Assembly: GCA_009602725.1 (NCBI GenBank)
Contig: WELB01000236.1
Span: forward strand, 106,138-170,137
Direction: 5' to 3'
DNA length: 64,000 bases
From: Spirogloea muscicola
Taxonomy: Eukaryota; Streptophyta; Zygnematophyceae; Spirogloeales; Spirogloeaceae
The position numbers were made by a program, and so were the translations under genes. The notes under the pieces are model-generated. The model had not been told where the DNA came from. It did not search any database and saw only the letters and a list, made by a program, of their open reading frames with translations. Numbering within the stretch: the stretch's first letter is position 1; the number at the start of each line of letters is the position of its first letter. Shown here piece after piece: positions 23,389 through 64,000 of this stretch.

Positions 23389-26300
23389 TCAAGTTGTGAC
23401 CATGGAGGCCTGCACAGGCGACGCACGGCGCCGCAAAGCTGCATCCAGCGGCCCTTGGCCAGCCGCCAATGGGTTGTCGAGCGCGGCACCCAATGACGAT
23501 GTCGTCTCGCTCGCTGCTACCGGTGCTTCATGAGTGGGGCCATTCAAGTGCAACCTCTCCTCGCTGACCTCAGCCAGGCGCTTGAGCACATTGAGCATGG
23601 CTGGCACCACCTTTGCACTTACTGACAGCAGGCCAGGCACCTGTGCAAACTCCACATCATGCTCAGACATTCGATCAGCAATCCTGGCTTGCAGCTCGAA
23701 CTGAAAGGAGTGACTCACCCATCTCGCTGCTTTTGCAATACATCGGAAACTGGTGCCTGATAAGGTGATCAGAGCCATACAGTTCTGCTTCCCACAGTAT
23801 TGCTAAGCTTAGGTTATAGCACTTGATACATCAGGTCGATGCCAGCGCCAACTGAGTTGCCCATAAGCTGGCCACTTGTGGTTGGCATTTCGCGATGTTC
23901 TCACTGCCAGCGCAGCTCACCAGGCCGTGTCGGAATTCTGCCCTGAGGTCGATCTGCTTCATCAGTGCACGACCGAGGAGGATGACAGCAGCCGCAACGA
24001 ACCACATGATAGGATTGAAAGCAAAATCCCTGCACAGAGTAACACAGCACCAATTATTGAAGTCATCTTGAATGGTAATGACTAATCTCTTGTACATCTG
24101 AAGAATTTAGGTGGTGAGACATGGTAATGACTAATCTCTTGTACATCTGAAGAATTGAGGTGATCAGACAAGGTGGCATACCAAAGGAAGGCAAGTGCAG
24201 CGCAGAATTCGTTGAAGCCAAGCACAAACATTGCGACCATCGCCCACGGTGGTGGAAGCCACATGGCTTTCCGTCGGCTTGCCTCCTGCCATAGCAACAA
24301 CAAATGCTGCAGTCGGAATCTGCAAGCTTTGCCAGCTCATATGTCCTGAAACCTAGCCTAGAGACCTGACAGAGATGTTCCTCCTTCATTTGACACGAAT
24401 CCTAGACCCAGGACTCCAAGGCTGACTGTCAGCCGTCATGCGCCTCACTGGCCAGTGTCTCTGCGCACCTGCGCTGCCATAGCCTGGCTGATGGTGTACT
24501 CCGTCTCGGCCTTGAGCTGCCGCCACAGGATCCGGCACTGGCCAGGGGACAAGAGCACATCCTCCTCCGGTATCTGCACCTTGCCAGCATGCAGTTGCTG
24601 CAAAGTCAGCTGGCAGATCTGAACAGTGACTCTTAAGTCAATATGACATGAATAATCACATTGTCAGACCCTCAGATTCAAATGGAGAGGCAATGACAGA
24701 ACAACAGCAGCCTCTGCATCGCAGACGCACCGCCTCCCACGTGGACGATGTGAGGTACGACGAAGATGGAGCTGCAGCGGCATCGGTGGAGGTGCTGTCG
24801 GGGGAATCCGAGAGCAATGACAGGAGCGCAGGCTCTATGGTATTGGGTTGCTCTTCTTTGAGGCGCACCGCGGCAACAACAGCCAGTAACCGCAGAGCCT
24901 AGAGGCGGCAAACGTCGGTTGTCAGATACATGGTTCCAAATGTGAGCTCTAAATCTTGCCTACTTACACAAATCTGCTCTAAGCTGACCACCTCAAAAGC
25001 TAATGCCTTCACATACTACGGCCTCATTTTGGCAACAGAGTTAGGAACAGTGTCCTGGTAGCCCACCGCTGCGCGTGCATCCCGCGTGATGGCTCGAATG
25101 TCCTCGTCACCTTTCCAAACCCGCGGCATAGACTCCGCATCCCGACTGAAGACCATGTTGAATCTGATCAAAATACCTCAATGAGCACAATGTGTCAGTC
25201 AAAGCAGGCAAGCTCCAACTTTCTAGACGCTAAGATCTGGGGGGTTATGGTGTCCAGAGTGCCCACCTGTCCTTCATACGAATGAGGGCCTGTTTGGCCT
25301 CCTCACGTGCACGCCGCTCGATGCACGTCCGTCCAGCAGCCACCAGCGTCGCCGCCATCTGCGCAGCCTCGCCCTCCTCCACCTTGTACCCCTCCACTGA
25401 CTTCACCAGACTCCTCTCAGCAGCTGGCTCGCCAAGGTTGTCGTCAGTCAGGCTTTGAGCTTCAGAGTTTCATACATCAATTGTGCATGCTGAGCTGAGC
25501 TGTATAGCCATAAAGATGCACACACTTCAATGCACGGTGCAAGCTTGTAAGAGAGCTGCCACAAGGTACACTCGAGCAGTAGCCACCCAAGCTGAAGCTG
25601 TCGCCAATGAAGACTGCCTGCTATTGTTCTGCTCACTCTGCGTCTCTCGTGACAGGAGCTCGCGCAGGGCAGGCCATGTGTCGGACGTCCCAGCATCGAG
25701 CAGAGTTCCAGCGGGCTCCAAGATCGCGCGCTCCAGGTTGACCTGTGGCAGTAGCCAACTGGGTTGTCAGATGCGCCTAAGTTGGAGCATTCCCTCCTGG
25801 TGCCGGCCTTCAGCTGCCAGCTGTTGCGGCGCGCTGCAACCACTCCCACCTCAGCCTCCTTGGTGACGGCGGCGAGCCTTTGCACTCGGAGGGTTGCAAC
25901 ATGCGCCTCCAGGTCGCGCAGGAGCTTCTCGCGCGGCTTTGCCGTATCCCAGCCCAATAGGCTGACATGCGCATCGTCCAGCTTGACGTCAAAGCCTTCA
26001 ACCGCCGCCCTCGTCGTGGCATTTGCAGCCTCGGCAAATGGCACGTCACTTTCCAAAGCGAGCCGACGGTCCAATGCTTCCTTGAAGGCAACAAGCGCAG
26101 CCGTACGGTGGTGCGCCACCAAGGCCGTGTACGCCGGCTGCATGAGCTTGCCAATCTCGGACAGGAGAAGCTCGCGCTTGCTGCTTCGGACTCCCTCATC
26201 AAAATAGGCTGCCTCTGCATCGTACCTACAGAGCAGCAAGAACCGGCTCAACTCCTCAGCGACAGAACCGCAGCCGCAACTTGGGATGGAGCATCGAAGA

Positions 26301-28419
26301 TGGCAGCACGCAAATGCGTACCACTCGATGCAGTGCTCCAACATCAATGACGCCTGGCGCCCGAAGCCATCCACGGCCCTCGCCTTCGCAGCCTCGTCCA
26401 GGTCGCGCCACTCCTGCCAGCGTCGCAGCCGCTCGAAGTATGTGTTTTCAGACTCGAGGTAGTGCAAACTCCATGCATAGCAGACCCAGCCGTTTGTTAA
26501 ACGAAAGTCACCAGCCCTTGGGGCAAACTCTTATCAATCAAAGAGCAAACCATTGGCAGTCACAGACCTGCTGGTTGCGGAGCCCCTGCAGCTGCTCGCG
26601 TGCAATCTCCTCACACCGCACCGTTGCCACCATCACCTGCATAGCAGCAGCTCACATCGTTTGAGAGCCCCGGTCTGTCGTCCTACATTCTTGCTCCAAG
26701 GAGCACAAGTGCCACCTGAGCTGTCCAGCCAGCAAGTGCACCTTGTGGGCTGGCAGGTCAAGGTCACGGTTTTCCCGAATGATGCGCCACATCTCCTGCG
26801 CGCTCAGCGAGAACGCCGATGCCGGCACGACGCCGCGCCGGTCGCCCGCCAGCCCACCTGGTACGACCGAGTTCATGAATCGGTCTCGCAGCTTCATAAC
26901 CTGCTCCTTGAAGAGCTCCTCCTTCTCCTCGAAGTTGGCCAGCGCCGTCACCTCCACCTGCATTCAAGGGCAAAAGCGAAGGTCAGCTGTGTGCAAGGTG
27001 GCAGCAGGCAAAGGATTTCCTGAGCGGCACTTGTGCGGGACTGCTCACGTTGAAGAAGTCGCTGAGCGGCACCGCTGCATATTGTGAAGGCTTGGCAATG
27101 TTGTCCCAAATCTGCAGCATATAAAATTGCAACCGGCATTTCAGCTGTGTGAGGCGGGAACCTACAAGTAGCGAGCAGCGCATGATCAGCTGATGGCACA
27201 GTCAGCCGATGGCCAACGGCGCAGCCAATGACATTTGCCCAGGTGGCGGCCGGGGGCTGACCTTCTGAATATCCTCGCGCAGAACTGGCTCCAGCGTTTC
27301 CATTGGCGTCTGCACCACCGGCGGCAGGGTTGGTATGCGGCTTAGCCACAGGCCAACCATGCACGACGGGCAGCATTGGATAGCAGGACAGGCTCGAGAA
27401 CACGTTGGCAACTGCATTGCAAGTGGCGTACCTTTGTCTTGTCGCGGATGACAAAGAGCAGCGTGGTCTTGCGTGGCGTGAAGAGGCGCAGCATCACCTG
27501 CTCGCCAGCGCCAGAAACAGCTTCAACGCCGCTGGGTTGTGTGGTGAAAGCGGCGGCTGAGCGCGGCAGTCAATTGCTGCACCGCGCACCTGGAAGACGG
27601 TCTTGAGGAGGGGCTTGTTGGCGGCCTGCTCGCGCCCAATGTCGTGGCACCACCTTGCCGCAGCAGCAGGAGCAGTCGCGACAGTGGGGTTTGCCAGCGT
27701 CAGTCCACTTTGACGACATTGGGAGAAGGTGCTGGGTGAGGCCCAGCGAGCGCAAACTCAATTTGCAAATTCCCAACGGAAGTGACGCGTCCAGTGTGTA
27801 GAAAGTGACACCACGGTGGCAGGCAGCACTCACATGTTGACGATGACGATGTCAGAGACGGCGAGCGCAAAGAGCGCGCTCTGCTTCTCGAACGCCGTGT
27901 CGTCCTGCAAGCAGCCGGCCCATCGGTAGCCGCGGCAAGAAGGCGCACATCAGGACCGGCTCGCCATCTGCAGCAGCCCTCGCTCCACCGCCACAGCAGG
28001 CCGAGCTGCCGCACGACGGCGCGGCGCACACCTCGCCGCGCTCGCGGCCGTCGGTGCCCTCGATGTCGCACACGAGCGTGGGCGGCCGGATGCCCGCCGC
28101 CAGGCCCAGCCACACGCCCTGCGTCGTCTGGCTCCTGCTCGCCCGCAGGGCCACGCCGGCCGCCGCGCCGTCAGCTGCGGGCCAGCCGGCTCCATGCCGA
28201 ACCCGGCCAGCGTCGGAGCAGCCAGGGGGGGGGCCGCGGCGCTGGCCTGCCGGCGAAGGCGTCCATCTCGCGGAAGGACGTGCCGAAGAGGTGGTTGAGC
28301 AGCGTGCTCTTGCCTGCGCCACAACCGGCAGCCGCCGCAGCGTCAGCCGGCGGCGGCGGCGGCGGCGGCGGCAGCGCGCGGCGTATCGCTGCTCAGGGGC
28401 CCCATGATGGCGACAANGC
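23389..28419 (-). CDS. RHD3: RHD3/SEY1 dynamin-like GTPase, copy A (near complete)
   Basis: An ER-membrane GTPase that fuses tubules (plant ROOT HAIR DEFECTIVE 3, yeast Sey1, animal atlastin analogue). Exons on -: 28,313-28,247; 28,134-28,032; 27,904-27,834; 27,653-27,590; 27,497-27,432; 27,309-27,262; 27,111-27,049; 26,957-26,742; 26,636-26,568; 26,452-26,322; 26,225-25,850; 25,742-25,637; 25,459-25,267; 25,163-25,067; 24,898-24,731; 24,597-24,469; 24,285-24,182; 24,029-23,921; 23,640-23,389. Every junction agrees in phase. G1 is [20 protein letters not shown], switch RSQTT, G3 [13 protein letters not shown]4 FVIRDK. The helical stalk includes [18 protein letters not shown] and [14 protein letters not shown]. 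The C-terminal hairpin membrane anchor is [19 protein letters not shown] and [18 protein letters not shown], then an amphipathic tail [19 protein letters not shown]. Only the last codons of exon 1 (VAIMGPLSS) remain, cut at a single N (28,417), and its donor reads G|AT instead of G|GT. Confidence 0.93.
24070..24158. repeat. 51-base tandem duplication in an RHD3 copy A intron
   Basis: Inside the intron between exons 24,285-24,182 and 24,029-23,921, a unit beginning 'atggtaatgactaatctc' and ending near 'tctgaagaatt' occurs twice, offset by 51 bases (about 24,070 and 24,121), with few differences. It looks like a recent intron slippage and would make a length marker. Confidence 0.75.
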
Positions 28420-28425
28420 CGCCGC

Positions 28426-28458
<33 letters not shown>

Positions 28459-29724: not shown

Positions 29725-30110
29725 GCGCATGCACCTTGATAATGTGTTTGGTGGCTGCAGGGATGGCAGGAGTCGCGCAACCTGGACGCAACTGCACCTT
29801 GTGGGCCGGGAGGTCAAGTTCGCACCTGTTGCAAATTTTGCACCAGATTCCTTGCACTCCTCACAGAAGCCGACACTGTACGACTTCGCCCTCGTCGACT
29901 ACCAGCCCCCCTGGCATGGTCAGCTGGACAAACAGTACCCGCAGCTCCGCCACCTGTTCCTTGAAGAGCTCCTCTTCGAAGTTGGCCAGCTCCGTCAACC
30001 TCCTCCTGCTGGGAATGGCGGAGCGCAGGTCAACCTGGGCTGCTCTTCAAGAGGTGGGACAGGCAAAGCTTTTCCTGGCTCGCTTGCTCAGGTACTCTAC
30101 GTTCGTCCTT
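29725..30110 (-). pseudogene. RHD3: RHD3 fragment X1: exon 9 joined to inverted exon 11 piece
   Basis: On the minus strand about 30,010-29,808 matches RHD3 exon 9: [20 protein letters not shown], and after decay CELDLPAHK. It runs without an intron into about 50 bases (29,807-29,757) that are the reverse complement of exon 11 (the WQEW...DLD region). The same exon-9/inverted-exon-11 junction occurs at 59,850-60,110, so this is a duplicated rearrangement rather than an independent event. It is not translatable as RHD3. Confidence 0.8.
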
Positions 30111-31239: not shown

Positions 31240-34200
31240 GGCAGCTTGCCAGCTGACGAGAGCGGTGCAAAGAACGTAGACCAACACGCTGAATCCGATG
31301 GTCTTCATGACGATCACGTGGGGCGCAGGAAGTGGGAGTTGCTGTCGCCGGCGTAACTCCTGTCAATGGCATCACGATGGCATGACATCACGCTGCAAAC
31401 CTTGCCAGCTCATGAGCCTGATATCCTACCGCTGCGCCGCTCGTCCAAACTCAACCTTCCAGTTGATATTCGACCCTAGCCCCCTGCTCGGAGAAAACTT
31501 TTACACTAATTTCATGAAGACAGCAGGGCAGTCATTACACCATGTGTGCAACTTGCTCCTTCTGCAACAAGCAAATTTTCTACCTTAGGACCGTTGGAAT
31601 ACTGCCGCCGTCCCTTGGGGCGGGAATTCTAAGCATAACCCCATGCTCACCTGCAACTCCATGGCTTCGGAAATGTCAAATCTAGTCCTGCGGTGGAGCT
31701 GCTGGCAGAGTCTCCAACAATCCCTAGGCGACAGCAGCACACTCGTGTCCTGCAACTTCACTCCCCAGGCCAAGGGCTGGCACGCAGGTGTTGCACGGTC
31801 GACCTCAGTACGAACTAAAGTCAATGAGACTCCAGAACTGAAGGTTGACACTAAGTATTGCTGTCACACCTTCTAAGCTCCTATGCAAGGACAATGAGAT
31901 AGCAGCAGGACGCTCAGGGGTTGCCGATGCGCCTTGTTCCATGATAACATGGCCAAGTAAGTGGCGCCGGTGAAGGGTTTGTTGGGAGGATGCCATGACA
32001 TTAGCACGGCCTCAATTGTGTCCGGCTGCTCCGGCTGCTCTCCGCTGAGACGCACCGCCGCGACGACAGACAGCAAACACAGAGCCTGGGGGATGCAAAC
32101 ATTGACTGTCAGAAAGCTGTACCAGACCTTAGCTGTCTCAATCTTGACTAGCACTGTAAAGCTGCGAGGCTGGTGATTCCCCACCCGACTGCACAGTTAA
32201 GGGCCTTCACATACTGAGGCCTTCGGATTGGCTTAGCGTCCTGTAAACGAGGTCCAGGCAGCCCACCGCTGCACGTGCATCCCTCACGCTTGCCAGCACG
32301 TCCTCCTTACAATTCCAAACCCGCGGCAGGGAGTTTGTATCCCTATAGAACACCGTGTCAAATCTGACACAAAGACCTCAAACGGCAGAGTACTTCAGTC
32401 ATGGCAGACGTCACTCAAAGCAGACAAGCTCCGAAGCTATTTGGGCCTGGGCCCTTATGAAGTCCAGACTGCCCACCTGTGCACCATGCTGTGGAGCGCA
32501 TGGTTGGCTTCCATACGTGCACAGTGCTCAACGCACTCTCGCCCAGCAGCTGCCAGCGCTGCCACCATCTCCTCAGCCTCGCCTCTCTCCAACTTATATC
32601 CCTTTACAGCCTCCAGCAGACTCTCCTCGGCATCTGGATCACCGAGGTTGTCAGTGATCAGGCTTTGAGATTCAGGCTACGGCAAGCTTTGCTGAATCTG
32701 AAACATTGAAAATGCAATTATATGAGTACGGGGTGCCAAGTGTGACTGGGAGCTGCCAAATGGCACACCCCAGCAAGGGGCACCCCTGCAAGTCAAGCTG
32801 TCGCCTCAAAGACGGCCTGCAGGTTTTGTGCTCACTCTGCGTGGTCCGCCGCAGGAGCGTGCGCAAAATCGGCCACGTGTCCGAACTGCCCTTAAGGAGG
32901 CGCCCTCTGCAGGGGCCCGCGGTCGCCTGCACCAGGTTGGCCTGTGGCAAAGCAAAGTGTTCCGTCAGAAGCGCCCAACATGCCTTGGTGCTTTTGCATT
33001 CCAGTGCCAGCCTTTGGCTGCCAACTCATGTGGTGAGCCGCAAGTGCTCCCACCTCGGCCTCCTTGGCGATGGCAGCAAGCCTCTGCGAGCGCACGGCTG
33101 TCACATGTGCGTCCAGGTCACGCAGGAGCCCCCTGCGCGGCTTTGCTGTATCCCAGTGCAACAGGCTGACATGCGCATCATCCATCTTGGCGTCAAAGCG
33201 TACAACCGCGGCCCTCATCTCGGCATTTGCAGCCTCGGCAAATGGCACGTCATTTCCCGTTGCGAGCTGCCGGTCCAATGCCTCCTTGGACGCAACAAGC
33301 GCAGCCGTACGGTGGTGCGCCACCGTGGCCGTGTATGCCGGCTGCATGAGCTTGCCGATTCCGGACTGGAGAAGCTCGCGCTTGCTGCGTCGGACTCCCT
33401 CATCATAATAGGCTGCCTCTGCATCGTACCTGCAGAGCAGCAAGAACCGGCTCAACTCCTTAGCGTCAGAGCTGCAGCCGCAAGTTGCGGTGGAGCACCC
33501 CAGACGGCAGCAAGCAAAAGTGTACCCGTCGAGGCAGTGCTCCAACATCGCTGACGCCTGGCGCCCGAAGCCATCCACGGCCCTTGCCTTCGTGGCCTCG
33601 TCCAGGTCGCGCCACTCCTGCCATCACCGCAGCCGCCCGGACATGTTACATCGAGGTGGTGTGACCTCTATGCCACGGCAGGCCCAACCAGTCCCCAGTG
33701 CAAAACCCAGCTGCCAATGTGGCCAACTTTCAGGTGATCAATGCGCAAGCCATTCACAGGCAGTCACAGGCCTGCTGATTGCGGAGCTCCTGCAGCTGCT
33801 TGCGTGCAATGTCCCCACACCGCACTGTTTTCACCATCACCTGCGTGGCAGCAGCTCAGGCCGGGTCAAGAGGCTGGTTTGTCGTCCTACATGTCCAGTG
33901 CGAGCCTACTGACAGCATGCTCGTAAGTGGACACCAATCTGCTGGACGATACTTTGTCGACGAAGAGAGAGTTAGCCTTAGAGGGGGGAGCACGAGTGCC
34001 ACCTTGGCTGTCTAGCGGCAAAGTGCACCTCGTAGGGGGGCAGGTCTAGGTCGCGGTTGTTGCGAATGTCGCACCACACTTTCTCCACGCTCCCGGCGAA
34101 TGCCGACCCCCGTGCGAGTTTTCGGTGGTCTCCGGCCAGCCCTCCCGGCGCCGTCGCATTGATAAACCGCGCCCGCAATTTCACCACCTGCTCCCTGAAG

Positions 34201-35746
34201 AGCTCCTCCTCCTCCTCGAAGTTGGCCAGCGCCGTCACCTCCACCTGCGGGCAAAGGCCAGAGTGCAGGTCAACCTCAGCTGCTCTGCGCTGGGTGGCAG
34301 CAGGCAAAGGGTCAGGCGGAAGTGGCGAGTACAGGGACTGCTCACATTGAAGAAGTTGCTGAGCGGCGCAGCTGCAAATGGCTCAGGCTTGACGACGCTG
34401 TCCCAGATCTGCGGCGTGGTGGATCGCAGCCGGAAGTCAGGCAGGGCCAAAGGAAAGCCACGAGTGGCGAGCAGCGCAGGCGTGGGCAGCGCTTACAAAA
34501 GCAGCGGCGCAGACAATGACAGGTGTCCAGGTGGCTCCAGGGGGCTGACCTTCTGAACATCGTCACTCAAAATTGTCCTCAACATCTCCAATGGCCTCTG
34601 CACGGGCTGTCAAGCATTGTTAGACTCGGGCCCAAGCATGCACGACAGGCAGCAATGGCACCCGCAGGGCCGGCGCAAGAAGGCATCGGAGGCTGCGGTG
34701 CCGGTGGCGCACTTCCGTCTTGTCGCGGATGACGAAGAGCAGTGTGGTCTTGCGCGGCGTGAAGAGCCGCAGCATCACCTGCTCGCCGGCGCCCGCGCCA
34801 GCATCAACGCCGCTGGCATCTTCAGTCAGAGCAGCAGCTGGGTGCGGCACCTGTCGCTGCAGAGCGCACCTCGAATATGGTCCTGAGAAGGGGCCTGTTG
34901 GCGACCTGCTTGCATACAATACCGGTGCACCACCTTGCTGCAGCAGCGGGAGCAGCGTGGGATTGCCAGTGTCAGCTCAATGCGACGACACTGGGCTCAG
35001 AGCGGGTGAAGGTGAAGCGCAAGTGAGCGCGGCCTGCGGAGACCGGAGGCCCAGACGGCACCAAAGTGTCCGTTGAGGGACACCTGAAGCACAAGAGTGG
35101 GCGGCACTCACATGTTCACAATGACGATGTCAGAGATGGCGATTGCAAAGAGCGCGCTCTGCTTCTCGAACTCCTCGTCATCCTGCAAGGAGCCGGCCAC
35201 GGCGCTCGCGGCCCCGACCGTGCGTCAGGTCCGGGCTGCCACCCACCCTGCAGCAGCCTCGCTCCGCAGCCACAGGGCAAGCTATCTTGCTGGCAGTTGT
35301 TGGCACAACAGCTGTCTGGCGGGACCGGCGTACCTCTCCGCGCCCTCTGTTGTCAGTGCCTTCAATGTCGCACACAAGCGTGGGCGGCGAGATGCCCACC
35401 GCCAGGCCCAGCCACACGCCCACCGTCGTTGGCCCCCTGCGGCGCACGGGGCCCCGCGAGCTGGCACTCCATCAGCCGCCGGTGGCGTCGGCCGGCAGCA
35501 GCTCCGGCAACGGTGCCTCGACGAGAAACGGGCAAGAGGAGAGGAGGAGGGCGGGCAGAAGTAGCGGCTGCTGTTATCAACACTGCGGCTGTAAAGACCA
35601 GCCAGGTGTCTTAGCCAGCGTTGCAGAGGGATGGCGGCGCAGGCCTGCCGGTGGAGGCGTCCATCTCGCGGAAGGACGTGCCGAACAGGTGGTTGAGCAG
35701 CGTGCTCTTGCCTGCGCCGCGGCCGCCGCCGCAGCTCAGCCACCGA

Positions 35747-35779
<33 letters not shown>

Positions 35780-35942
35780 GCGAGCGCGCCGCACCGCTGC
35801 TCTGAGGCCCCACGATAGCAACGACGGCGTAGTCGAGGCCGGCCTCGGGCAGCGCCGCGTCGAGCACGAAGGCCTCCAGCGCCGCGCCGTCCAGGCTCCC
35901 GTCACGGCTAATCACCTGCACCGGCTCCGCCGCCGCCATCAT
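31240..35942 (-). pseudogene. RHD3: RHD3/SEY1 copy B, nearly full-length but broken
   Basis: Exons 1-10: 35,942-35,795; 35,711-35,645; 35,436-35,334; 35,182-35,112; 34,933-34,870; 34,778-34,713; 34,597-34,550; 34,408-34,346; 34,244-34,029; 33,840-33,772. Exon 11 ends at 33,526. Others are 33,429-33,054; 32,941-32,836; about 32,680-32,488; 32,363-32,267; from 32,085; to 31,651; then a decayed anchor near 31,390-31,250. Exon 1 is intact: start MMAAAEPVQVIS, then LDYAVVAIVGPQSSG with donor G|GTGCGG, so splicing rebuilds GPQSSGKST. Lengths and phases equal copy A, but there are an in-frame TGA in exon 11 (RLR*WQEW), a GC instead of GT after exon 10, loss of the AG before exon 14, and G3 changed to DIEGTDNRGRGE. 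The membrane anchor has degenerated. It could still express a GTPase-domain fragment. Confidence 0.88.
35745..35782. repeat. (GGC)n in RHD3 copy B intron 1
   Basis: About twelve GGC units within the roughly 83-base intron between the G codon of the P-loop (exon 1) and its K-S codons (exon 2). Equivalent tracts occur in copy A (28,340) and copy E (62,104). Confidence 0.9.
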
Positions 35943-35959
35943 AAACATTCCGTGTATAA

Positions 35960-36625
35960 GAAACAAATGTAGGCCAAATGGCCAAGTACAAAGGCAAGCA
36001 CATCTAAACATCTACATAACGTACAGCAGATTGACCCGCTCAATAACCACGGGTCAAAACATGAAGGTCACTAATCGATGCATGAATATTAGATGCCAGA
36101 AACGGAGCCCTTCTGCCACCAACTAGAGCTCGCCCAGCTTTCTGGTGCAAGGCACTAGCTTGAGCACGCTGCAAACAGACCGAAACTCGTCGTCGCAAGA
36201 GCGACAGATATGCAGCTGGCAAGCCCATCTTAGCCGGATACACATCTGCATGTCGAGTGTAGCCTAGATTGGCGATGTTTTGAAGGAGCGTGTGGAAGCG
36301 AGGACCCAGACAGCCATAGATGTCGATTGCCGCTGGCAGGAGCTGATCGCATTGGGGGTAATCGGAGTAGTACCGCAAATTTTTTTTCTTCTGCAGCGCC
36401 CACTGCATGCCTAGCGATGTGTGTCGATGCTGGGCCCTTGAATGCCTCCGAAACAACAACGTCGACCAGGGCCCGTGGTCCTCCACCAGGTTGCACGCCC
36501 ACAATGTCAAGTGTGCGGCGATGATGACGTCCCTGGGCGTCCGTGGTGATAGGCATGATATTGTTGACTTCCACGACCGCTCGGTAGCCGGCGTCGCGCA
36601 TCAAGCCCGCCGGCTCCGCCGCCAT
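35960..36625 (-). mobile_element. LINE 3' end with endonuclease-like domain (copy L6)
   Basis: The minus strand runs from about 36,625: GLMRDAGYRAVVEVNNIMPI, RRTLDIVGVQPGGGPRALVD then VVVSEAFKGPAS (a PD-(D/E)XK-like D...DVV box), HAVGAAEEKK, and after frame changes AIDIYGCLGPRFHTLLQNIA and HQKAGRALVGG, ending DLHVLTRGY at 36,040. The tail reaches about 35,960 and adjoins exon 1 of RHD3 copy B. It keeps more of the endonuclease-like part than most copies. Confidence 0.8.
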
Positions 36626-36679
36626 CTCACCGCCGCTGCCGCCGCCGGGGACGGGCGTGGGCCGTGGGGTGACCGTGTA

Positions 36680-36964
36680 TTAGAAAGAAATGTAGGCCAA
36701 ATGGCCAGGTACAAAGGCAAGCACATCTAAAGATCTACATAACCTACAGCAGATTGACCCGCTCAATAACCACGGGTCAAAACATAAAGGTCACTACTCG
36801 ATGCATGAATACTAGATGCCAGGAACGGCGCCCTTCTGCCACCTACTAGAGCTCGCCCAGCTTTCTGGTGCAAGGCACTAGCCTGAGCACGCTGCAAACA
36901 GGCAGAAACTCGTCGTCGCAAGAGCGACAGATATGCAGCTGGCAAGCCCATCTCAGCCGGAAAC
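36680..36964 (-). mobile_element. LINE 3' end (copy L7), cut by gap
   Basis: Nearly the same sequence as L6: MGLPAAYLSLLRRRVSACLQ, HQKAGRALVGGRRAPFLAS and DLYVLTRGY, with the stop at 36,763 and a tail to about 36,680. The 5' side runs into the gap at 36,965. L6 and L7 are in tandem and very similar by eye, so they are young or were duplicated together. Confidence 0.8.
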
Positions 36965-37757: not shown

Positions 37758-38548
37758 CGCCGCCGCCGCCGCCGCCGCCGTCGCCGCCGGCTGCTGGAGC
37801 TGCGGTGGCGGCGGCGGGCCAGGGCTGTGGATGGTTTCGGGCGTCAGGCGTCTGAGGTTCTGGAGCACTTGCGTCGAGGGATATGCATGCGTGCTGCCGT
37901 CTCTGCTACGTTGCAGGATGCGGCTGCAAGCACTGACGCTGGGAGTTAAGCCGGTTGTGGTTGCTCTACAGGTATGAGGCGGAGGCTGCGTATTTTGATG
38001 AGGGCGTCCGGAGCAGCAAGCGCGAGCTCCTCCTGTTTCGTAACAAAGACCCAGGGCCCAGTTCTCCTAGTGATTGGAGCTCGTCTGCTTTGACTGACGT
38101 ACTGTGCCGTCTGACGTCTTTGTGTCAGGAATGATCTGGCGTTTAGGTTGGATGCCAACCTTGTGCAGCAAGTCTGGCATGGTAACAGGTCTTTTACAAG
38201 GAAAGCGCAAGCAGCGGTGGGCTGCCTGGGCGTGGGCCTTGTTTGCTGGTGATGCGGAGACATAGGGCCTCGGGACACGAAGGCCTTGACTACAGAAAAC
38301 TTGCGCAGCTTCTCAGTGCTAGTCAGGATGGAGACAGTTGGGATCTGGTACATGTATCTGACAGTCAATGATTGCCCTCTTCAGGCTCTGCATGCAATGG
38401 CCGTGACAGCAGTTGTGCGTCTCAGTGGAAATCGGCAGCAGCCGGACACGATTGAGGCCACGCTGCTGTCGTGTGTGCTCCCAACAGCACCCCCGTCGGC
38501 GCCACTGCAGCTCCCTTGGCCTTTGCTGTCAAAAGACAGGGTGCGCTG
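37758..38548 (+). pseudogene. RHD3: RHD3 fragment F1, left arm of palindrome
   Basis: It starts in a (GCC)n tract, then exon 11 sense ([17 protein letters not shown]). The first part of exon 12 follows at 37,971-38,040 ([20 protein letters not shown]), which stops after CTCCTGTTTCGTA. The sequence jumps to the intron 14-exon 15 region and then to exon 16 at about 38,370-38,548 (TVMHLMAV-type core, here LHAMAVTAVVRLSG and DTIEATLLS). It meets its own inverted copy at 38,548. Exon 12 breaks at the same base as in fragment F2, so both descend from one truncated ancestor. Confidence 0.8.
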
Positions 38549-39425
38549 AGCTGCCTGCTGTTACCTATGACAACAAAGGCCACGGGATCCGCAGTGGCGC
38601 CGGCGGGGGCGCTGTTAGGAGCAAGCCACGACAGCAGGGTGGCCTCAAGCCTGTCCGGCTGCTGCTTCTCTCTACTGAGACGCACAGCTGCTGTCACGGC
38701 CAGCGCACTCAGAGCCTAGAGATGGCAATTGATGACTGTCAAGTACAGGTACCAGATCTCGACTGTCTACTCCTGACTAGCACTGCGAAGCCGCGGCAAG
38801 GATCCTGTAGCCAAGGCCTTCGTGCTCTGAGGCCCTATATCGGTACAGCATCTCCAACAAACAAGGTCCAGGCAGCCGCTTGCATGCGCTTCCCCTGTAA
38901 CGAGATAACGTATCTGTTGCCATGCCAAAGTTGCTGCACAATATTGACATCCAACCTAAAGTCCAAATAAGATCTGACACAAAGACACCAAATGGCACAG
39001 TACGTCAGTCAAAGGCATATAAGCTGCAGTGCTTTGGGATTGGGCCCTGGGTCTTTATGGAGTCCAGACTTTCTATCTAAACAACATGCTGGTGAGGCAT
39101 GCTTGGCTCTCATGTGCGCAGTGCCTGATGCATCGCGCCCAGCAGCTGCCAGTGCTGCCACCATCTGCTCAGCCTCGCTCCTCTCCAGCTTGTACTCACT
39201 CACCACACTAACGAGATTCTTCTTAGCCTCTGTTTCACCGAGGTTGTCAGTAGTCAGGCTTTGAGATTCAGGATACGTAAGCTTTTGCTGAATCTGATAC
39301 TTTGAAAGTGCAAATACATGAGTGTGGGGTGCCAAGTGTGACTAGGAGCTGCTGCCACATGACACACCCAGCAACATGCACCCCTGCGAGTCGAGCCGTC
39401 GCCTCAAAGACGGCGTGCAGGTAAA
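38549..39425 (-). pseudogene. RHD3: RHD3 fragment G, right arm of palindrome
   Basis: Minus strand: exon 14 at about 39,265-39,070 (SLTTDNLGETEAKKNLVSVV, then EQMVAALAAAGR), a decayed exon 15 region, and exon 16 at about 38,722-38,549 (TAAVRLSREKQQPDRLEATL). It ends at the palindrome centre and, at its 5' side (39,425), is cut by dispersed repeat R. It differs enough from F1 that the two arms are not an assembly mirror image. Confidence 0.8.
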
Positions 39426-39429
39426 TAGC

Positions 39430-40060: not shown

Positions 40061-40069
40061 ATTTCGTGT

Positions 40070-47519: not shown

Positions 47520-50240
47520 GCTTGCCAGCTGACGAGAGCGGTCCAAAGAAAGTAGGCAACCACAATGACTTTGATGGTATTGATGACGGTGACGTGGGGC
47601 GCATGAAGTGGGAGTGCCGAGAGCAACCACACGCCCGCTGCCCACAATCCTGAAGTCCACTTCACTAGCTGCTGGCGTGCCTCCTGCCACACCGCCGTGC
47701 GCAGTGGCAGTGGCCGGCGGAAGTCCTGCCAATGGCATCACGGTGGCATGACAACATTTCGCAAACCTTGCCAGCTCATGGACGCCGGAGCCTTGTACCA
47801 TATATTTGCACAGTTTATTCAGACTCAACCTTCTTACAAACGAACTCAACCTTCTAGTATGTGATATGGACCCTAGACCCCCTGCTGGAGAATACAAAGA
47901 ACACTGTATCCATATTGAGACTGCAGGACAGTCATCACTACCATTTGTGCAGGTTGCTCAATATAGCAGCAAGGACATGAACATTGTTACCTTAGGACAG
48001 TTCGACTTACTGCCGCCGTTCATTTGCACTGGAACTCAAAACAAGTCAGCCATCACCCAATGCTCACCTGCAACTCCATGGCCTGGCAAATGGTGGTTTC
48101 AGTCTCGTGGTGGAGCTGCTGGCAGAGTCTCCAACATTCTGCAGACGAAAGCAGCACACTTGCGTCCTGCAAGTCCCCAGGCCAAGTGTTGAGGCAAGCA
48201 GATGTTGCACAATGATTTGATTGGGAAGGAAAGGCCATGAGATTTCAGAGCGAAGGCTGACAGTAAGTACTGCTGTCAATCCTTTTATGCTGTTATGGAA
48301 GGACAGTGAAGTGATAGCAGGCAGCTCAGGCGTTGCCAGCGCACCTGGTCCCATGACAAAGAGGACAAGGGCTTGGCGCTGGCGAAGGTGCTGTTGGGAG
48401 GGAACCACGACAGTAGCACGGCCTCCATCATGTCTGGCTGCTCTTCATTGAGTTGCACCGCTGCGACGACAGCCAGCAAATGCATAGCCTGGAGGGGGCA
48501 ATCATCGACTGTCAGTCCCAACCTTAGCTGTTTCAATCTTGACTAGCACAGCGAAGCTGCTCAAGGCTGGAACCCAACTCCACCCAACTGCATAGTCAAG
48601 GCCTAGACATACAGAGCCCTCGGATCGGCTTAGCGTCCCGTAAACAAGGTCCAGGCAGCCCACCGTTGCATGTGCGTCCCTTGCGCTTGCCAGGATGTCC
48701 GCGTTGCAATTCCAAACCCGCGGCAGGGAGTTTGTATCCGTATAGAACACCGTGTGAAACCTGACACAAAGACGTCAATCAGCACAGTACGTCAGTCAAA
48801 GGCAGACGAGCTCCAATCGCTATGAGAACTGGGCCCTGGGTCTTCGTGATCTCCAGACTGCCCACCCGAGCAACATGCTGGTGAGGGCATCATCGGCTGC
48901 CTCCCGTGCACATTGCTGGATGCACTCCCGCCCAGCAGCTGCCAGCGCTGCCACCATCTCCGCGGCCTCCCTCCTCTCCAACTCGTACCCCCTCACCACC
49001 TTGAGGAGAGTCCCCTTAGCCTCTGTTCCACCGTGGTTGTCAGAAGTCAGGCTTTGAGATTCAGGATACCGCAAGCTTTTTCTGAGTCTGGTACTTTGAA
49101 AGTGCAAGTACATGGGCGCGGGGTGCCAAGTATGACTGGGAGCTGCTGCCACACGGCACACCCCAGCACAAGGCACCCTGGCAGTTAAGCTGTGGCCACA
49201 AAGATGGCCTGGAGGTTCTCTGCTCACCCTGCGTGTTCCGCAGCAGGAGCTTGCGTAGCATCGGCCACGTCCGCGATGACCCCTCCTTGAGAAGCACTCT
49301 GCAGGGGTCCCTGACCGCCTGCACCAGGTTGGCCTGTGGCAACGCAAGTTGTTCTGTCAGAAGCGCTCAACATGCTATGATGCTTCTTCATTCGGATGCC
49401 AGGCGTTGGCTGCCAGCCAATGTCGTCAGCCGCAGACGCGCCCACCTCGGCCTCCTTGGCGATGGCGGCGAGCCTCTGCGAGCGCACTGCTGTGAGATGC
49501 GCGTCCAGGTCACACGAGAGCTCCTTGCGCGGCTCTGCTGTACCCCAGCCTAACAGGCTGATACGCGCATCATCCATCATGGCGTCAAAGCCTTCAACCG
49601 CCGCCCTCATCGCGGCATTTGCAGCCTTGGCAAATGGCACGTCATTTTCCGTAGCGAGTTCCCGGTCCAATGCTTCTCTGAAAGCACCAAGCGCAGCTGT
49701 ACGGTGGTGCGCCACCGTGGCCGTGTATGCCGGCTGGACGAGCTTGCCAATCCCCTTCAGAAGGAGCTCGCGCTTGTTGCTCCGGACGCCCTCGTCCAGA
49801 TGCGCTGCCTCCACATCGTACCTGCAGAGCAGCCACAACCGGCTCAACTTCCCCAGCGTCAGTGGCTGCAGCCGCACCTTTGGCAATGTAGCATCACCGA
49901 CGGCGGCACGCGTGGCATACCACTCGAGGCAGTGCTCCACCATCGCTGACGCCTGGCGCCCGAAGCCATCCACGGCCCTTGCCCTCGCGGCCTCGTCCAG
50001 GTCGCGCCACTCCTGCCATCGCCGCAGCCGCCAAGACGCGTTACATGGAGGTGGTGTGACCTCTATGCCACAGCAGGCCCAGCCAGTCCCCAAAGCGAGA
50101 CCCAGCGGCCAATGTGGCCCACTTTCACGTGACCAACGCGCAAGCCATCCACAGACAGTCACAGGCCTGCTGATCGCGGAGCTCCTGCAGCTGCTGGCGT
50201 GCAATTTCCTCACACCGCACACTTGCCACCATCACCTGCG
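47520..50240 (-). pseudogene. RHD3: RHD3/SEY1 copy C, 3' half only
   Basis: It lacks all GTPase exons. Exon 10 is 50,236-50,168 ([18 protein letters not shown]), exon 11 ends near 49,926 ([20 protein letters not shown]), exon 12 is about 49,821-49,446 (YDVEAAHLDEGVRSNKRELL), exon 13 is about 49,335-49,230, exon 14 about 49,060-48,870, exon 15 about 48,760-48,660 (PRVWNCNADILASARDAH), exon 16 about 48,490-48,300 (LAVVAAVQLNEEQPDMMEAV), exon 17 about 48,180-48,070 (DASVLLSSAECWRLCQQLH), and a decayed membrane-anchor exon about 47,690-47,520 (INTIKVIVVAYFLWTALVSW). The acceptor AG used before exon 14 in copy A is missing. The 5' side is joined to LINE copy L14 at about 50,260. Long open frames persist, so it may be transcribed, but it cannot make a GTPase. 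Confidence 0.85.
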
Positions 50241-52789: not shown

Positions 52790-53914
52790 TAGCAGAGCTT
52801 GAACCCCGCCGCCGCCGCCGCCGCCGCCACCGCCGCCGCCGGCAGCTGCTGGAGCTGCAACGGCGGCGGCGGGCCAGGGCTGTGGCTGGCCTCGGGCGTT
52901 AGGCATCCGAGGTTCTGGAGCACTGCATCGAGGGGTATGCATGCGCGCTGCCATCTGTGATGCTACGTTGCAAGATGCGGCTGCAGCCACTGACGCTGGG
53001 CAGGTGAGCCGGTTGTGGTTGCTCTGCAGGTACGATGCGGAGGCAGCACACTGTGACGAGGGCGTCCGGAGCAGCGATCGCGAGCTCCTCCTGTTTCGTA
53101 GAGGCTAGTTGCCATCATCAAGGAGGCCGAGGTAGGGGTGTTTGAGGCTCGCCACATCAGCTGGCAGCCTCCTGGCATCGGAAAGAAAAGAACAAAGGCA
53201 TGTTAAGCACTTCCGACGGAACAGGATGCACTCCCACAGGCCAACCTGGTGCAGGGGATCTCGGACCCTGCAGATTGCAACTTTGGAGGGGAGCATCGGA
53301 CACGCTGCCGATCCTGGGCAAGCTCCTGCCGCGAAGAACGCAGGGTGAGCACAAACCTGCAGCCCATCTCTGCGGCCACAGCTCGACTTGCAGGGGAGCC
53401 TTCTGCTGCGGTGCGCCATGTAGAGGCTGTTTAGTCATTTGGCACCTAAAATTCACGTAATTGGATTTGCATACTTTCGATTCAGCATAAGCTTGCCACA
53501 GCCTGAGTTGCATAGCTTGACTACTGACAACCTTGGAGACCCAGAGGCTGAGGAGAGTCTGCTTAGGCGGTAGACGAGTACAAGTTGGAGATGGGCGAGG
53601 CTGAGCAGATGGTGGCAGCGCTGGAAGCTGCTGGGCGAGAGTGCATCAGGTACAGTGCGCGTGAGAGAGCTAAGGATGCCGTCATCAGCATGATGCACAG
53701 GTGGGCAGTCTGGCATCACCAAGACCCAGGGCCCAATTCTCATAGTGATTGGAGCTCGTCTGCTTTGACTGATGTACTGTGCCGTTTAACGTCTCTGTGT
53801 CAGATCTAATCTGGCCTTTGGGTTAAATGCCAACCTTGTGCAGCGAGTCTGGCATGGTAACAGGTATGTTACAAGGAATGCGCGTGCAGCGGTGGGCTGC
53901 CTGGACCTGCCTGG
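52790..53914 (+). pseudogene. RHD3: RHD3 fragment F2, left arm of the largest palindrome
   Basis: (GCC)n at 52,800-52,845, then exon 11 sense sequence, an exon 12 start at 53,031-53,100 (YDAEAAHCDEGVRSSDRELL) that jumps after CTCCTGTTTCGTA to the exon 12 end (IIKEAEVGV). Exon 13 is near 53,235-53,342, exon 14 at about 53,515-53,702 (EMGEAEQMVAALEAAGRECI) and exon 15 to 53,890. It reaches intron 15 and turns there into copy D on the other strand. About 270 bases of exon 12 are missing, at the same breakpoint as in F1. Confidence 0.85.
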
Positions 53915-53938
53915 CAAACAGGGTCCAGGCAGCCCACC
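53891..53938. repeat. Palindrome centre of the F2/D inverted RHD3 pair
   Basis: ggtgggctgcctggacc (53,891-53,907) and its complement ggtccaggcagcccacc (53,922-53,938) flank a 14-base loop. Outside this the arms stay complementary with mismatches through exon 15 (aatgcgcgtgcagc / gctgtacgcgcatt) and beyond. In copy A this point is just inside the donor of exon 15. Confidence 0.9.
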
Positions 53939-55866
53939 GCTGTACGCGCATTCCTTGTAATGGACCAAATGTATCTGTTGCCATGCCAGACTGGCTGCAC
54001 AAGGTTGGCATCCGACCTAAATGCCAAATGAAATCCATTACAGAGACGTCAAATGGCACAGTACGTCAGTGAAAGCAGACGAGCTCCAATTGCTAAGAGA
54101 ACTGGGCCCTGGGTCTTCGTGATCTCCAGACTGCCCACCTGTGCACCATGCTGATCAGGGCATCATTGGCTGCCTCCCGTGCACATTGCCTGATGCACTC
54201 CCGCCCAGCAGCTGCCATCGCTGCCATCATCTGCTCGGCCTCGTTCCTCTCCAACTTGTACCCCCTCACCACCTTCAGGAGATTCTTCTTAGCCTCTTTT
54301 CAACCGAGGTTGTCAGTAGTCAGGCTTTCAGATTCAGGATACCGTGAGCTTTTGCTGAATCTGATCATTTTTTTGAAAGTGCAAGTACATGAGTGCGGGG
54401 TGCCAAGTGTCACTAGGAGCTGCTGCTACATGGCACACCCCAGCACAAGGCGCCCTGTCAGTCGAGCTGTGGCCACAAAGATGGCTTAGAGGTTTTTTGC
54501 TCACTCTGAGTGTTTTGCAGCAGGAGCTTGCGCAGTGTCTCCGATGTACCCTCCTTGAGAAGCACTCTGCAGGGGTTCATGATTGCCTGCACCAGGTTGC
54601 CTGTGGCGGAGCAAATTCTTTTGTCAGAAGCGCTCAACATGCTATGATGCTTTTGGTTTTTGATGCCAGCCGTTGGCTGCCAGCTGATGTAGTGAGCCGC
54701 TAATACTCGCACCTCGGCCTCCTTGGCGATGGCAGCAAGGCTCTGCGAGCGCATGGCTGTTACAAGCGCGTGCAGGTCGCGCATGAGGCGCCTGCGCAGC
54801 GTTGCTGTATCCCAGCCGAATAGTCTGACATGCACATCATGCATCTTGGCGTCAAAAGTGTTCGACCGCCGCCCTCATTGCAGCGTTTGCAGCCTCGGCA
54901 AATGGCACGTCATTATCCGTGGCGAGCTGCCAGTCCAATGCTTCCTTGAAGGCAACAAGCGCAGCCGTACGGTGGTGCGCCACCGTGGCCGTGTATGCCG
55001 GCTGGACGAGCTTGCCGATCGCCAACAGGAGGAGCTTGCGCTGGCTGCTCCGGACGCCCTCGTCAAAGTACGCTGCCTCCGCATCGTAAATGCAGAGCAG
55101 CCACAAAAGGCTCAACTCCCCAGCGTTAGTAGCTGCAGGCGCACCTTGCAATGTAGCATCACTGACGACAGCATGCATGACATACCCCTGGATGCCATGC
55201 TCCAGGATTTGAGCCCGAAGCCACTTACAACCCTTGCCCTCGCAGCCTCGTCCAGGTCGCGCCACTCATGCCATCGCCTCAGCCGCCCGGACACGTTACG
55301 TCAGGTTGTCTGGCCTCTATGCCACAGCAGGCCCAGCCAGTCCCCAAAGCGGAACCCAGCGGCCATTGTGGCCGATTTTCAGGTATATCAATTTGCAAGT
55401 GATTCACTGTCACAGGGCTGCTGATTGCGGAGCTCCTGCAGCTGCTCGCGTGCAATCTCCTCACACCGCAGTGTTGCCACCATCACCTGCGTGGGAGCAG
55501 CTCAGGCGGGTCGGGAGGCTGGTCTGTCGTCCTGAATCCAGTCCAAGCCTACATACAGTATGCTCGTAAGTGTGAATACCAACATGCCGGACAATACTTT
55601 GTCGATGAAGAGAGAGTTAGCCTTAGGGGAGGAGCACGAGAGCCACCCTAGCTGTCCAACTGCACGTGCTCTTTTTGGGCGGGGAGGTCGAGATCACGGG
55701 AATGTGTGTCAAGTATTGCACCACATTTCCTGCACAACCGTTGCAATGCCGACCACGTTATGCGCTCGTGCTTGTTGTCTGCCAGCCCTCCCGGCGCAAT
55801 CGCAACCGCGCCCGCAGCTCCACCACCTGTTCCTTGAAGAGCTCCTCCTTCTCCTCGTTCTAGCTG
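53915..55866 (-). pseudogene. RHD3: RHD3/SEY1 copy D, exons 9-15
   Basis: Part of exon 9 is at 55,866-55,640 ([18 protein letters not shown]); exon 10 about 55,490-55,420 ([18 protein letters not shown]); exon 11 about 55,290-55,190; exon 12 about 55,089-54,714 ([20 protein letters not shown], then [20 protein letters not shown]); exon 13 about 54,600-54,530; exon 14 about 54,330-54,143; exon 15 about 54,030-53,935, heavily changed. It ends at the palindrome centre, so exons 16-20 are absent. Exon 12 carries a one-base frame change near 54,857. The 5' side abuts a LINE tail at about 55,862. Confidence 0.85.
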
Positions 55867-59160: not shown

Positions 59161-59274
59161 CATTGAGAAACAAGATAGCTTTGAGAAGGGTGTTATCTCT
59201 CAGTAATTCGACTATTTGTCATGACTCCATATATGATCAGATGGCAAGGCAGATTGCAGACCTTGACTAAGGAG

Positions 59275-59700: not shown

Positions 59701-60084
59701 GTAGAAAGACACAATTACTCTTCCTGGCATCTGCAAATGGACGAATATAGAACACCTGAGAAAGCGAGCCACGCAAAGCGTTGCCTGCTCCCACCTCGCC
59801 GAGAGCAGCCCAGGTTGACCTGCGCTCCGCCAATACCCGCAGGCGGAGGTGACGGCGCCGGCCAACTTCGAGGAGGAGCTCTTCAAAGAGCTTTTCGGTG
59901 GCCGAGCTCCGGGTGTCGTTCATTCATCTGAACATGCCAGGCAGCTGGCGCGCGACCAGCGCAGAGTAGTACCAGGGTTGGCATTTGCAACAAGTGTGCA
60001 AATGAAAAAAAAATCTGGTGCAGAAGTTGCAACAGTTGCGATATTGACCTTTCCGCCCACAAGGTGCACTTTGCCGTCCAGGTC
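59700..60084 (+). pseudogene. RHD3: RHD3 fragment X3: exon 9 running into inverted exon 11
   Basis: Plus strand: acceptor-like caatacccgcag then EVTAPANFEEELFKELF. After decay it reads ARDQRRVVPGLAFATS and DLSAHK (exon 9 end, donor-like aag|gtgcac), and at about 60,078 passes into the antisense of exon 11 (gtccaggtcgcaccactcct), which opens copy E. This is the third inverted RHD3 junction. The same junction sequence is found, flipped, at 29,757-29,830. Confidence 0.85.
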
Positions 60085-62222
60085 GCACCACTCCTGCCAT
60101 GGCTGCAGCCGCAGCCGTGTAACCTCTAGGGCATAGCAGGCCCTGCTCTTTCCCTAAACAAAGAAAGTGGCCACTGTGGCGAACCTTCGTGTGATGATAT
60201 TATCCCCAATAACGAGCTGCTGATTATGGAACTCCTGCAGCTACTTGCGTGCAAACACCTCACACTGGTTTGTTACCACCATCACCTGCGTGGTACCAGC
60301 TCAGGTGGGTCAAGAGGCTGGTTTGAAGTCCTACAATCTAGTCCGAGCCTACTGACAGTATGCTCATGAGTGGACATCAACATGTCTGACAAGATCGTGC
60401 CGATGAGGAGCAGTTAGTCTTGGGGCGAGGAGCACGAGTGCCACCCTAGCTGTCCAGCTGCAAGTGCACCTTGTGGGCGGGGAGGTCAGGGTCGCACATG
60501 TGGTGCGCACATTGCACCACATTCTCTGCACACTTTTGGCGAATGCAGACCCCTGTTTGAGTTTGTGCTGGCATCCTGCCAGCCTCCCGGCACCATCGCA
60601 GTATAGAATCGCGCCCGCAATTCCACCAATTGCTCCTGGAAGAGCTCCTCCTCATCCTCGAAGTTGGCAAGCGCCGTCACCTCCACCTGCGGGCAGGGCG
60701 GGAATGCAGGTCAACCTCGGCTGCTCTGCGCTAGGTGGCAGCAGGCAAAGAATCAGGCGGAAGTGGCCCGTGCGGGGACTGCTCACGTTGAAGATGTTGC
60801 TGAGTGGCACAGCTGCATACTGCTCGGGCTTGACGACGCTGTCCCAGATCTGCGGCGTGGTAAATCGCAGCCGGCACTCAAGCAGCGCCAGAGGACAGCC
60901 ATGGGTGGCGAGCAGCGCAGGCGTGGGCAGTGCTTGCAAAAGCAGCGGCGCAGATGATGACAGGTGTCCAGGTGGCTTCTGGGGGCTGACCTTCTGAATG
61001 TCCCCACGCAGGATTGGCTCCAGCATTTCCAAGGGCGTCTGCACAGGCGGCAGGGCTGGCAGGCGTTGTCAGACACGGGCCAAGCATGCACGACAGGCAG
61101 CAACGGCACCCGCAGGGCGGGCGCAAGCAGGCGTCGGAGGCTGCAGTGTCGGTGGCACACTCTCGTCTTGTCGCGGATGGCGAAGAGCAGTGTCATCTTG
61201 CCCGGCGTGCAGAGCCGCAGCATCGCCTGCTCGATGGCGCTCGCACAAAGTCAGCGCGGCTGGCATATGTCGTGAGGACGGCAGCTGGGTGCTGCACCGG
61301 TCGCTGCAGAGCGCACCTGGAAGACGGTCTTCAGCAGGGGCCTGTTGGCGGCCTTCTCGCGTCCAATGTTATGGCACCACCTTGCTGCAGCAGCAAGAGC
61401 GGCGTGGGACTGCTAGCGTCAGCTTATTGGGATGACACTGGGCACAGAGCGGGTGCCCAGTGTCGGCTTGCAGAGACCGGAGGCCCAGACAGCACCCAAA
61501 ATGATTGGAAGACCTGAAGCACAATTGTCGGCAACACTCACATGTTGACAATGACGATGTCAGAAACGGCGACTGCAAAGAGCGCGGTCTGCTTCTCGAA
61601 CGCTTCGTCGTCCTGCAATGAGCCGGCCACGGCAATTGCGGCACCGACCGAGCGTCAGGCCCGGCCCGCCACCACCCAGCAACAGCCTCGCTCCGCAGCA
61701 GCACGGTGACCTCGCTGACGGTTGCTGGCACAACAGCAAACTGAACAGCGGTCTGCCTGGAGCGGCGCACCTCACTGCGCCCGCGCTTGTCGGTGCCTTC
61801 GATGTCGATAACGAGCGTGGGCGAGATGCCCGCCGCCAGGCCCAGCCACACGCCCAACGTCGTCGGCCTACTGTGGCCGCGAGCTGGTGCGCCGTCAGCC
61901 GGCGGTGGCGTCGGCCAGCAGCAGCTCTAGCGGCGGGGGCTCGACGAGGGGACGGGCAAGAGAAGAGGAGGAGGGCGGCGTATAGAGGTAAGGGCGCGGC
62001 GCCGGCCTGCCAGCGGAGGCGTCCATCTCGCGGAAGGACGTGCCAAACAGATGGTTGAGCAGCGTGCTCTTGCCTGCGACGCCGCAGCTCAGCCGCAGCG
62101 TCAGGCGGCGGCGGCGGCGGCGGCAGCGCGGCGGGCGCGCGCGCAGCGCACCGCTGCTTAGGGGCCCCTATGATGGCGACGACGGCGTAGTCGAGGCCGG
62201 CCTCGGGCAGCCGCGCCGCGCT
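60085..62222 (-). pseudogene. RHD3: RHD3/SEY1 copy E, GTPase half
   Basis: Exon 1 remnant at 62,222-62,150 (RLPEAGLDYAVVAIIG, then out of frame), exon 2 62,061-61,995 ([20 protein letters not shown]), exon 3 about 61,866-61,770 ([12 protein letters not shown]3 changed to DIEGTDKRGRSE), exon 4 about 61,613-61,543 (DDEAFEKQTALFAVAVSDIV), exon 5 61,381-61,318 ([20 protein letters not shown]), exon 6 near 61,226-61,161 (G4 AIRDK), exon 7 61,041-60,994, exon 8 60,849-60,787, exon 9 about 60,688-60,472 (frame lost midway), exon 10 about 60,290-60,223, and a piece of exon 11 to the inverted junction. Exons 12-20 are absent. Exon 1 stops at an N (62,224). Confidence 0.87.
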
Positions 62223-62224
62223 AN

Positions 62225-63879: not shown

Positions 63880-64000
63880 CTGCGCCGCCGCCGCCGCCGC
63901 CGCCGCCTGCTGGAGCTGCGGCGGTGGCGGCGAGCCATGGTTGTGGATGACTTCGGGCGTCAGGCTTCTGAGGTTCTGGAGCACTGCATCGAGAGGTATG
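63880..64000 (+). pseudogene. RHD3: RHD3 fragment F3, runs off the window
   Basis: (GCC)n at 63,885-63,910, then exon 11 sense sequence ending at the exon 11 donor (ctgcatcgagag|gtatg). It has the same left structure as F1 and F2 (GCC tract, then gctggagctgcggcggtggc), so a third palindrome may lie just beyond the window. Confidence 0.8.

Follow-up and report, generated by a model that had tools for sequence, protein, structure and literature searches.

An RHD3/SEY1 gene and decayed copies of a putative sister paralog at a locus present in three versions in Spirogloea muscicola

Introduction

Atlastin or Sey1p is named as the endoplasmic reticulum (ER) fusogen of eukaryotes, and RHD3 as that of plants, in a published account, which also records lineage-specific duplications of atlastin/Sey1p (PMC9804665). 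The present study concerns a 64,000-nucleotide stretch of Spirogloea muscicola DNA (contig WELB01000236.1, here C236, positions 106,138 to 170,137; hereafter 'the window') that carries one RHD3/SEY1 gene, termed A, along with many partial copies of RHD3 exons and introns. An earlier note on this DNA had described a multi-copy cluster of one intact-looking gene and many decayed copies with shared exon borders, mixed with repeat ends, and this description is borne out by our mapping of A plus twelve further segments and by the long interspersed nuclear element (LINE)-like 3' ends that adjoin some copies. Among the titles seen in part of the literature on algal RHD3, RHD3 pseudogenes and palindromic pseudogenes, none concerned such a cluster, which is weak evidence of absence. 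Here we present evidence that the extra copies probably descend from a sister paralog, termed P, whose split from A preceded the multiplication of the copies.

Results

To map RHD3 sequences, exons of the A genes found on three contigs (C236 and two others, C27 and C81) were aligned over stretches of 80-95 kb on these contigs. Besides A, twelve RHD3 segments lie in the window, three of them shorter than 100 bases, and exon borders are common to the copies (Table 1). The longer segments score far above chance (up to 419 bits), and the weakest reach 47 and 44 bits. The cluster had been placed within 41 kb; the copies are indeed there, but the cluster continues 4.3 kb beyond the window and ends near C236:174435 (window coordinate 68298).

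Distances between segments, with copies covering less than 70% of a segment dropped from the means, separate A from the other copies. In introns, the copies lie at mean distances of 0.26-0.48 from A, with the exception of intron 11 (0.20). Among the P copies, mean distances are 0.11-0.28 in introns and 0.13-0.34 in exons, exon 2 standing apart (0.05), so that exons are no better kept than introns. Trees were built for three regions (8, 8 and 7 of 12 rows), and in all three the A genes and the P copies form separate clades (100/100). The branch between the clades measures 0.31 changes per site for exon 2 to intron 8, 0.11 for intron 9 to exon 12, a region that contains a proposed conversion tract (see below), and 0.36 for intron 12 to exon 15. 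The proposal that A is the parent of the copies is thus not upheld.

If A had been copied many times in tandem in a recent local burst, with the copies breaking afterwards, then the copies should trace to A itself. In the main copies, aligned parts of exons 2, 6 and 10-12 mostly match A at 80-97%, as such a burst would have it. However, introns of the copies are mostly only 50-70% like A, yet identity among the main copies in the window is about 78-82%, with introns counted. A recent burst is also contradicted by the separate clades in every region and by the presence of such copies at three loci (see below), and we therefore regard it as very unlikely.

The sister lineage P appears to have been a protein-coding gene for part of its history. 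In exons 7-9 and 13-17, codon positions 1 and 2 are more like A than is position 3 in most copies; for copy B, exons 13-17 are 71, 77 and 60% alike to A at positions 1, 2 and 3, respectively. This excess of third-position differences is the mark of a coding history of P. Diverged exons 18-20 at C81:160300-160928, each matching A at 44-55% of amino acids over 24-34 codons, would belong to P and suggest that P once had a membrane anchor.

All ten P copies tabulated lack exons and eight have stops within exons. Copies B and D are without stops, but B has lost the acceptor of exon 3 and both are ragged in exons 16-17, so that these too bear the damage of pseudogenes, be it a broken frame or the loss of exons or splice sites. 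The median ratio of nonsynonymous to synonymous change (dN/dS) between P copies is 0.54 (31 pairs), compared with 0.82 for introns read as codons and with 0.79 and 1.13 for shifted exon frames as a control. Constraint on P appears mostly, not wholly, relaxed. Introns are kept at the same places in the copies, which are thus not processed retrocopies. Retrotransposition or conversion mediated by cDNA (complementary DNA), considered for the A-like exons 2-6 and 10 because most of their introns are not A-like, was likewise rejected in view of the retained introns, constraint being the simpler account for exons 2-6. Repeat-induced point mutation (RIP) served as a comparison for the manner of decay. 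Transitions at CpG amount to 0.075 versus 0.042 at other C/G positions in exons, an excess of about twofold, and methylation-type decay was rejected, with no RIP-like burst seen.

When spliced along the minus strand from 28313 to 23389, the 19 exons 2-20 of A form an open frame of 785 codons. It had been said to keep every splice site from exon 2 onwards; this holds for the acceptors, which are all AG, and for the GT donors, but exon 2 has a GC donor in each of the three A genes. Against the RHD3 GTPase domain (PF05879) the protein scores 340.1 bits over positions 7-245 of 245 (cut-off 42.4), and against the Sey1 three-helix bundle (PF20428) 286.6 bits over positions 2-417 of 419 (cut-off 24). 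In a search of PDB it matched a single sequence, that of SEY1 (5ca8, E 4.5e-53, with two further entries), and a PDB search with one read-through open reading frame gave no match. Exons 18 and 19 of A read as hydrophobic stretches. In contrast, the P copies in the window are without membrane-anchor exons. The longer G3 motif of 12 residues is found only in A among six copies compared. The claim that A alone keeps G3 nevertheless goes too far, as the DIEGTD core can also be read in B and G and in a single copy on each of C27 and C81.

Exon 1 is interrupted by N in all three A genes. The GKS motif is visible, as is the preceding GPLSS in the window copy; on C81 the front half of exon 1 is readable before the N, and on C27 an N gap lies there. 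Because exon 1 is cut at all three loci, the absent start of A looks like an assembly gap and not a loss. The donor of exon 1 in A reads AT, beside the N-cut exon, and so is not assessable. Judged by its sequence, A has probably been kept as a working gene for the ER-membrane-fusing GTPase and is the sole likely source of RHD3 in the window; we infer that it is expressed. A separate observation is that exon 2, intron 2 and exon 3 of A (window 28032-28313) are nearly unchanged between loci, intron included, with a mean distance of 0.04, far below that of later introns.

The 153-Mb genome was searched, with the best candidates only being scored, for the RHD3 GTPase family, the Sey1 bundle family, and the DNA of A exon 12 and of copy B exons 14-15. 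Matches were found only on C236 (the window), C27 and C81, and each of these contigs holds one A gene with decayed copies beside it. The A genes are free of stops and frameshifts at the three loci, with 785, 785 and 762 amino acids, the last without a gap-cut exon 2, and all their acceptors are AG. They are 94-95% alike in exons and about 85% in introns, with dN/dS of 0.12-0.15. The same kinds of broken copies lie at 788-797 and 800-803 kb on C27 and at 157-161 and 183-192 kb on C81; the description of the cluster as a local burst therefore fails, at least for a recent one.

Other genes recur in the same way. A neighbouring open frame (window 17836-18774) has three matches in the genome, at 89-90% to the other two, and its C81 version lies about 78 kb from A, which indicates that the C81 locus is rearranged. 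CDC45 occurs at three loci (best 71 of 115 candidates scored), 82-90% alike over long pieces, and PRP8 (by its PROCN domain) also occurs at three. A search for the DNA primase family PF04104 found no match in the genome and is uninformative on ploidy. RHD3, the flanking gene, CDC45 and PRP8, the four genes that gave matches, are each present at three loci, so that three diverged versions of them exist in the genome or in its assembly, which suggests three subgenomes or three retained or uncollapsed haplotypes. On C81, a second, broken A-like piece (155945-157279) has exons 16-19 at 92-98% and an inverted exon 20 at 98%, and sits at an apparent inversion breakpoint.

The P copies appear to have multiplied partly as palindromes. 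Each contig was compared with its own reverse strand. Six palindromes with a length of 400 bp or more and an identity of 70% or more lay in 104.5 kb of cluster versus one in 139.2 kb outside, the latter about 4 kb past the cluster; this control is small and comes partly from the same neighbourhood. The arms of the large palindromes are 73-81% identical. Six tails (four on C236, one on C27 and one on C81) carry the same module, which runs from about nucleotide 21-31 of exon 11 through intron 11 into the first part of exon 12. In five of the six, the break in exon 12 falls at nucleotides 62-71 and the sequence spanning it is nearly identical; in the other one, exon 12 extends to nucleotide 121. 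The bases before exon 11 agree in five of six. The simplest account of junctions that recur on three contigs is one ancestral rearranged unit older than the parting of the three versions.

These junctions also bear on the concern, raised in the earlier note as a ground for refutation, that haplotypes or contaminants of a single RHD3 locus were stacked in one contig by misassembly. The three versions of the RHD3 locus and of three other genes, and the N gaps that interrupt the locus, speak for such an artefact. However, the copies in the window differ by about 20%, stand in both orientations and share odd junctions, at base level, with two other contigs. An artefact of this kind fits poorly and has, in our estimate, only a slight chance of being correct. 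Capture by a LINE or other mobile element that carries and spreads RHD3 pieces is prompted by the LINE-like 3' ends adjoining some copies, one of which has 43 matches listed across the genome, the query included (best 40 of 2394 first-look candidates scored). It appears very unlikely, because no RHD3 piece was found outside the three loci among the best candidates scored, introns are kept, and the breaks of the shared tails fall inside exons.

One further possibility is that the palindromic copies are hairpin-RNA genes giving small RNAs against A. The segment 38070-39040 is predicted to fold as one long hairpin, at -684 kcal/mol compared with a mean of -364 for 20 shuffles (z -52.8), and inverted duplication of pseudogenes is described as a route to plant microRNA genes (PMC3237417). 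In contrast, mismatches left by transitions between the arms are G-U and A-C in about equal number (p>0.05 in nine of ten palindromes, with p 0.02, uncorrected, in one), and this lack of preference for G-U gives no sign of selection on an RNA. Moreover, five of the six tails share no 21-mer with the A coding sequence on either strand. In the sixth, the whole T2 stretch shares 39 21-mers with the C236 A gene via copy F and two with the C81 A gene on the other strand, and the T2 palindrome alone shares none. Such hairpin genes are thus extremely unlikely. It is also highly improbable that long hairpin transcripts of the palindromic P tails feed small RNAs that regulate A, which would represent an inverted-duplication founder stage of a small-RNA gene retained at the three homoeologous loci. 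Hairpin folding, mismatch and 21-mer tests revealed nothing pointing to any role of the cluster.

The tract from exon 11 through exon 12 departs from the general pattern of divergence between A and P. By majority letters, A and P differ at 10 of 93 positions in intron 11; for introns 10 and 12 the figure is 76 of 248 (Fisher p 0.0001). Exons 11-12 have 44 differences in 460 positions, compared with 137 of 527 in exons 13-17 (p 1e-11). Between the A genes, exons 10-12 are the least conserved of five exon groups (92-93% of residues versus 95-100%). Protein constraint therefore cannot easily explain the likeness of A and P in this tract, whereas gene conversion can, and because intron 11 is also A-like, the conversion would be of the ordinary kind and not mediated by cDNA. 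From these comparisons, exon 11, intron 11 and exon 12 look like a gene-conversion tract between A and the P copies.

The window also holds the remnant of a Copia-type retroelement (Table 1). The LINE-like 3' ends gave no family match in a family search; a motif suggests that they may belong to a LINE of the restriction-like endonuclease type. Past the cluster, a near-spacerless palindrome of 1857 bp with arms 81% identical (C236:178392-180248, window coordinates 72255-74111) has no RHD3 exon match, and a relative of it lies on C27 near 785.3-786.2 kb.

Table 1. Features of the RHD3 cluster and its surroundings. Positions are window coordinates unless a contig is named.
Feature	Position	Strand	Content and remarks
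Gene A, RHD3/SEY1	23389-28416	-	exons 2-20 complete, 3' end of exon 1; a single N at 28417 cuts exon 1
Fragment	29798-30003	-	exon 9 alone, broken frame; 70% to A exon 9
Copy B	31659-35937	-	part of exon 1, exons 2-17, without anchor exons; GC donor after exon 10; exon 3 acceptor GG; nothing past exon 17 in exon mapping
LINE-like 3' ends	35950-36241, 36673-36964, 40065-40340		about 85-95% alike
Tail T1 module	37817-38036	+	exon 11 from nucleotide 30, intron 11, exon 12 nucleotides 1-65
Palindrome	38045-39056		near-spacerless; arms 77% identical; intron 14 to exon 16 sequence
Exon 16 piece within palindrome	38437-38514	+	44 bits
Copy C	38585-39223	-	exon 16 (38585-38715) and exon 14 remnants; palindrome arm and beyond
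Fragment	39986-40032	+	start of exon 9; 83% over 53 aligned positions; 47 bits
Copia-type retroelement remnant	43176-45892		gag, zinc knuckle and RVT_2 reverse transcriptase matches in separate frames
Copy D	48076-50235	-	exons 10-17, exons 1-9 absent
Copy E (tail T2)	52872-53700	+	exons 11 (from nucleotide 30), 12, 13 and 14; exon 12 missing from about nucleotide 66 to 333 or 340
Palindrome joining E to F	53096-54748		near-spacerless; 1653 bases; arms 76% identical
Copy F	53938-55857	-	exons 9-15; stops and lost splice sites; C27:788020-790244 matches at 90%
Fragment	59845-60063	+	exon 9; 65%
Copy G	60217-62073	-	exons 2-10; stops in exons 9 and 10; DIEGTD kept
Start of tail T3	63910-63992	+	exon 11; palindrome and more rearranged pieces past the window, to 68298
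Palindromes beyond the window	64168-65784, 66579-67583		near-spacerless
Palindromes on C27	C27:790038-791122, 795653-796084		near-spacerless
Palindrome on C81			257 bp

Discussion

We propose that an old duplication gave rise to two RHD3/SEY1 genes, A and P. A would have stayed a working gene, and P would have evolved as a protein for some time. A copy of P may then have lost its membrane-anchor exons as its 3' part folded back into an inverted duplication. Truncated units and other pieces would have multiplied at the locus in direct and inverted orientation, before or around the parting of the C236, C27 and C81 versions, and the P copies would since have decayed under little constraint. The exon 11-intron 11-exon 12 tract would have been exchanged between A and P copies after P had diverged. 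Taken as a whole, from the A/P duplication through the death of P, palindromic multiplication and conversion to A as the sole likely source of RHD3, this history is in our judgment highly probable.

Several observations weigh against this history or parts of it. The dN/dS between P copies lies below the intron control, which indicates that some P copies were coding for part of their history. Exons 2-6 are also alike between A and P and their introns are not; we put this likeness down to constraint, as silent differences between the A genes are scarce there too, which is not proof. Exon 10 (69 bp) is A-like though the intron between exons 10 and 11 is not, and the conversion account does not place it. 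The enrichment of palindromes weakens at a limit of 200 bp and 70%, with seven inside the cluster versus four outside. Over 2246 bp, copy F is 90% like its C27 partner, closer than the introns of the A genes (85%); some copies therefore moved or became homogenised later than the split, and some later exchange between versions is likely. Finally, copies may be concealed by the N gaps, about 10 kb in size, on C27 and C81.

The locus offers a readable fossil record, in that its three versions put in order the duplication, the death of the sister, the palindromic multiplication and the exchange with the survivor. It also carries a warning for annotation, as debris makes up most of the RHD3-like exons here, and RHD3 family trees will be distorted by exons 11-12.

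A pseudogene cluster beside RHD3 is an ordinary kind of thing, here unusually readable, and ancient instead of the product of a recent burst. Compared with the dynamin-like RHD3/SEY1 ER fusogens, A has the expected GTPase domain, long three-helix bundle, two hydrophobic-reading exons and SEY1 match in PDB, and nothing unusual was seen in it, whereas the P copies in the window have no anchor exons. Clusters of duplicated, unprocessed pseudogenes with ectopic conversion resemble this one in their kept introns, disabled copies beside an intact gene and a likely conversion tract. They differ in that the present cluster is common to three diverged versions of a locus and would have its source in a sister lineage, not in the neighbouring gene. 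Near-spacerless palindromes with truncated copies are likewise familiar from inverted-repeat (fold-back) amplification; unlike such amplification, that at this locus is old, as the divergence of the arms of the large palindromes attests, and the shared tail implies one rearranged ancestor.

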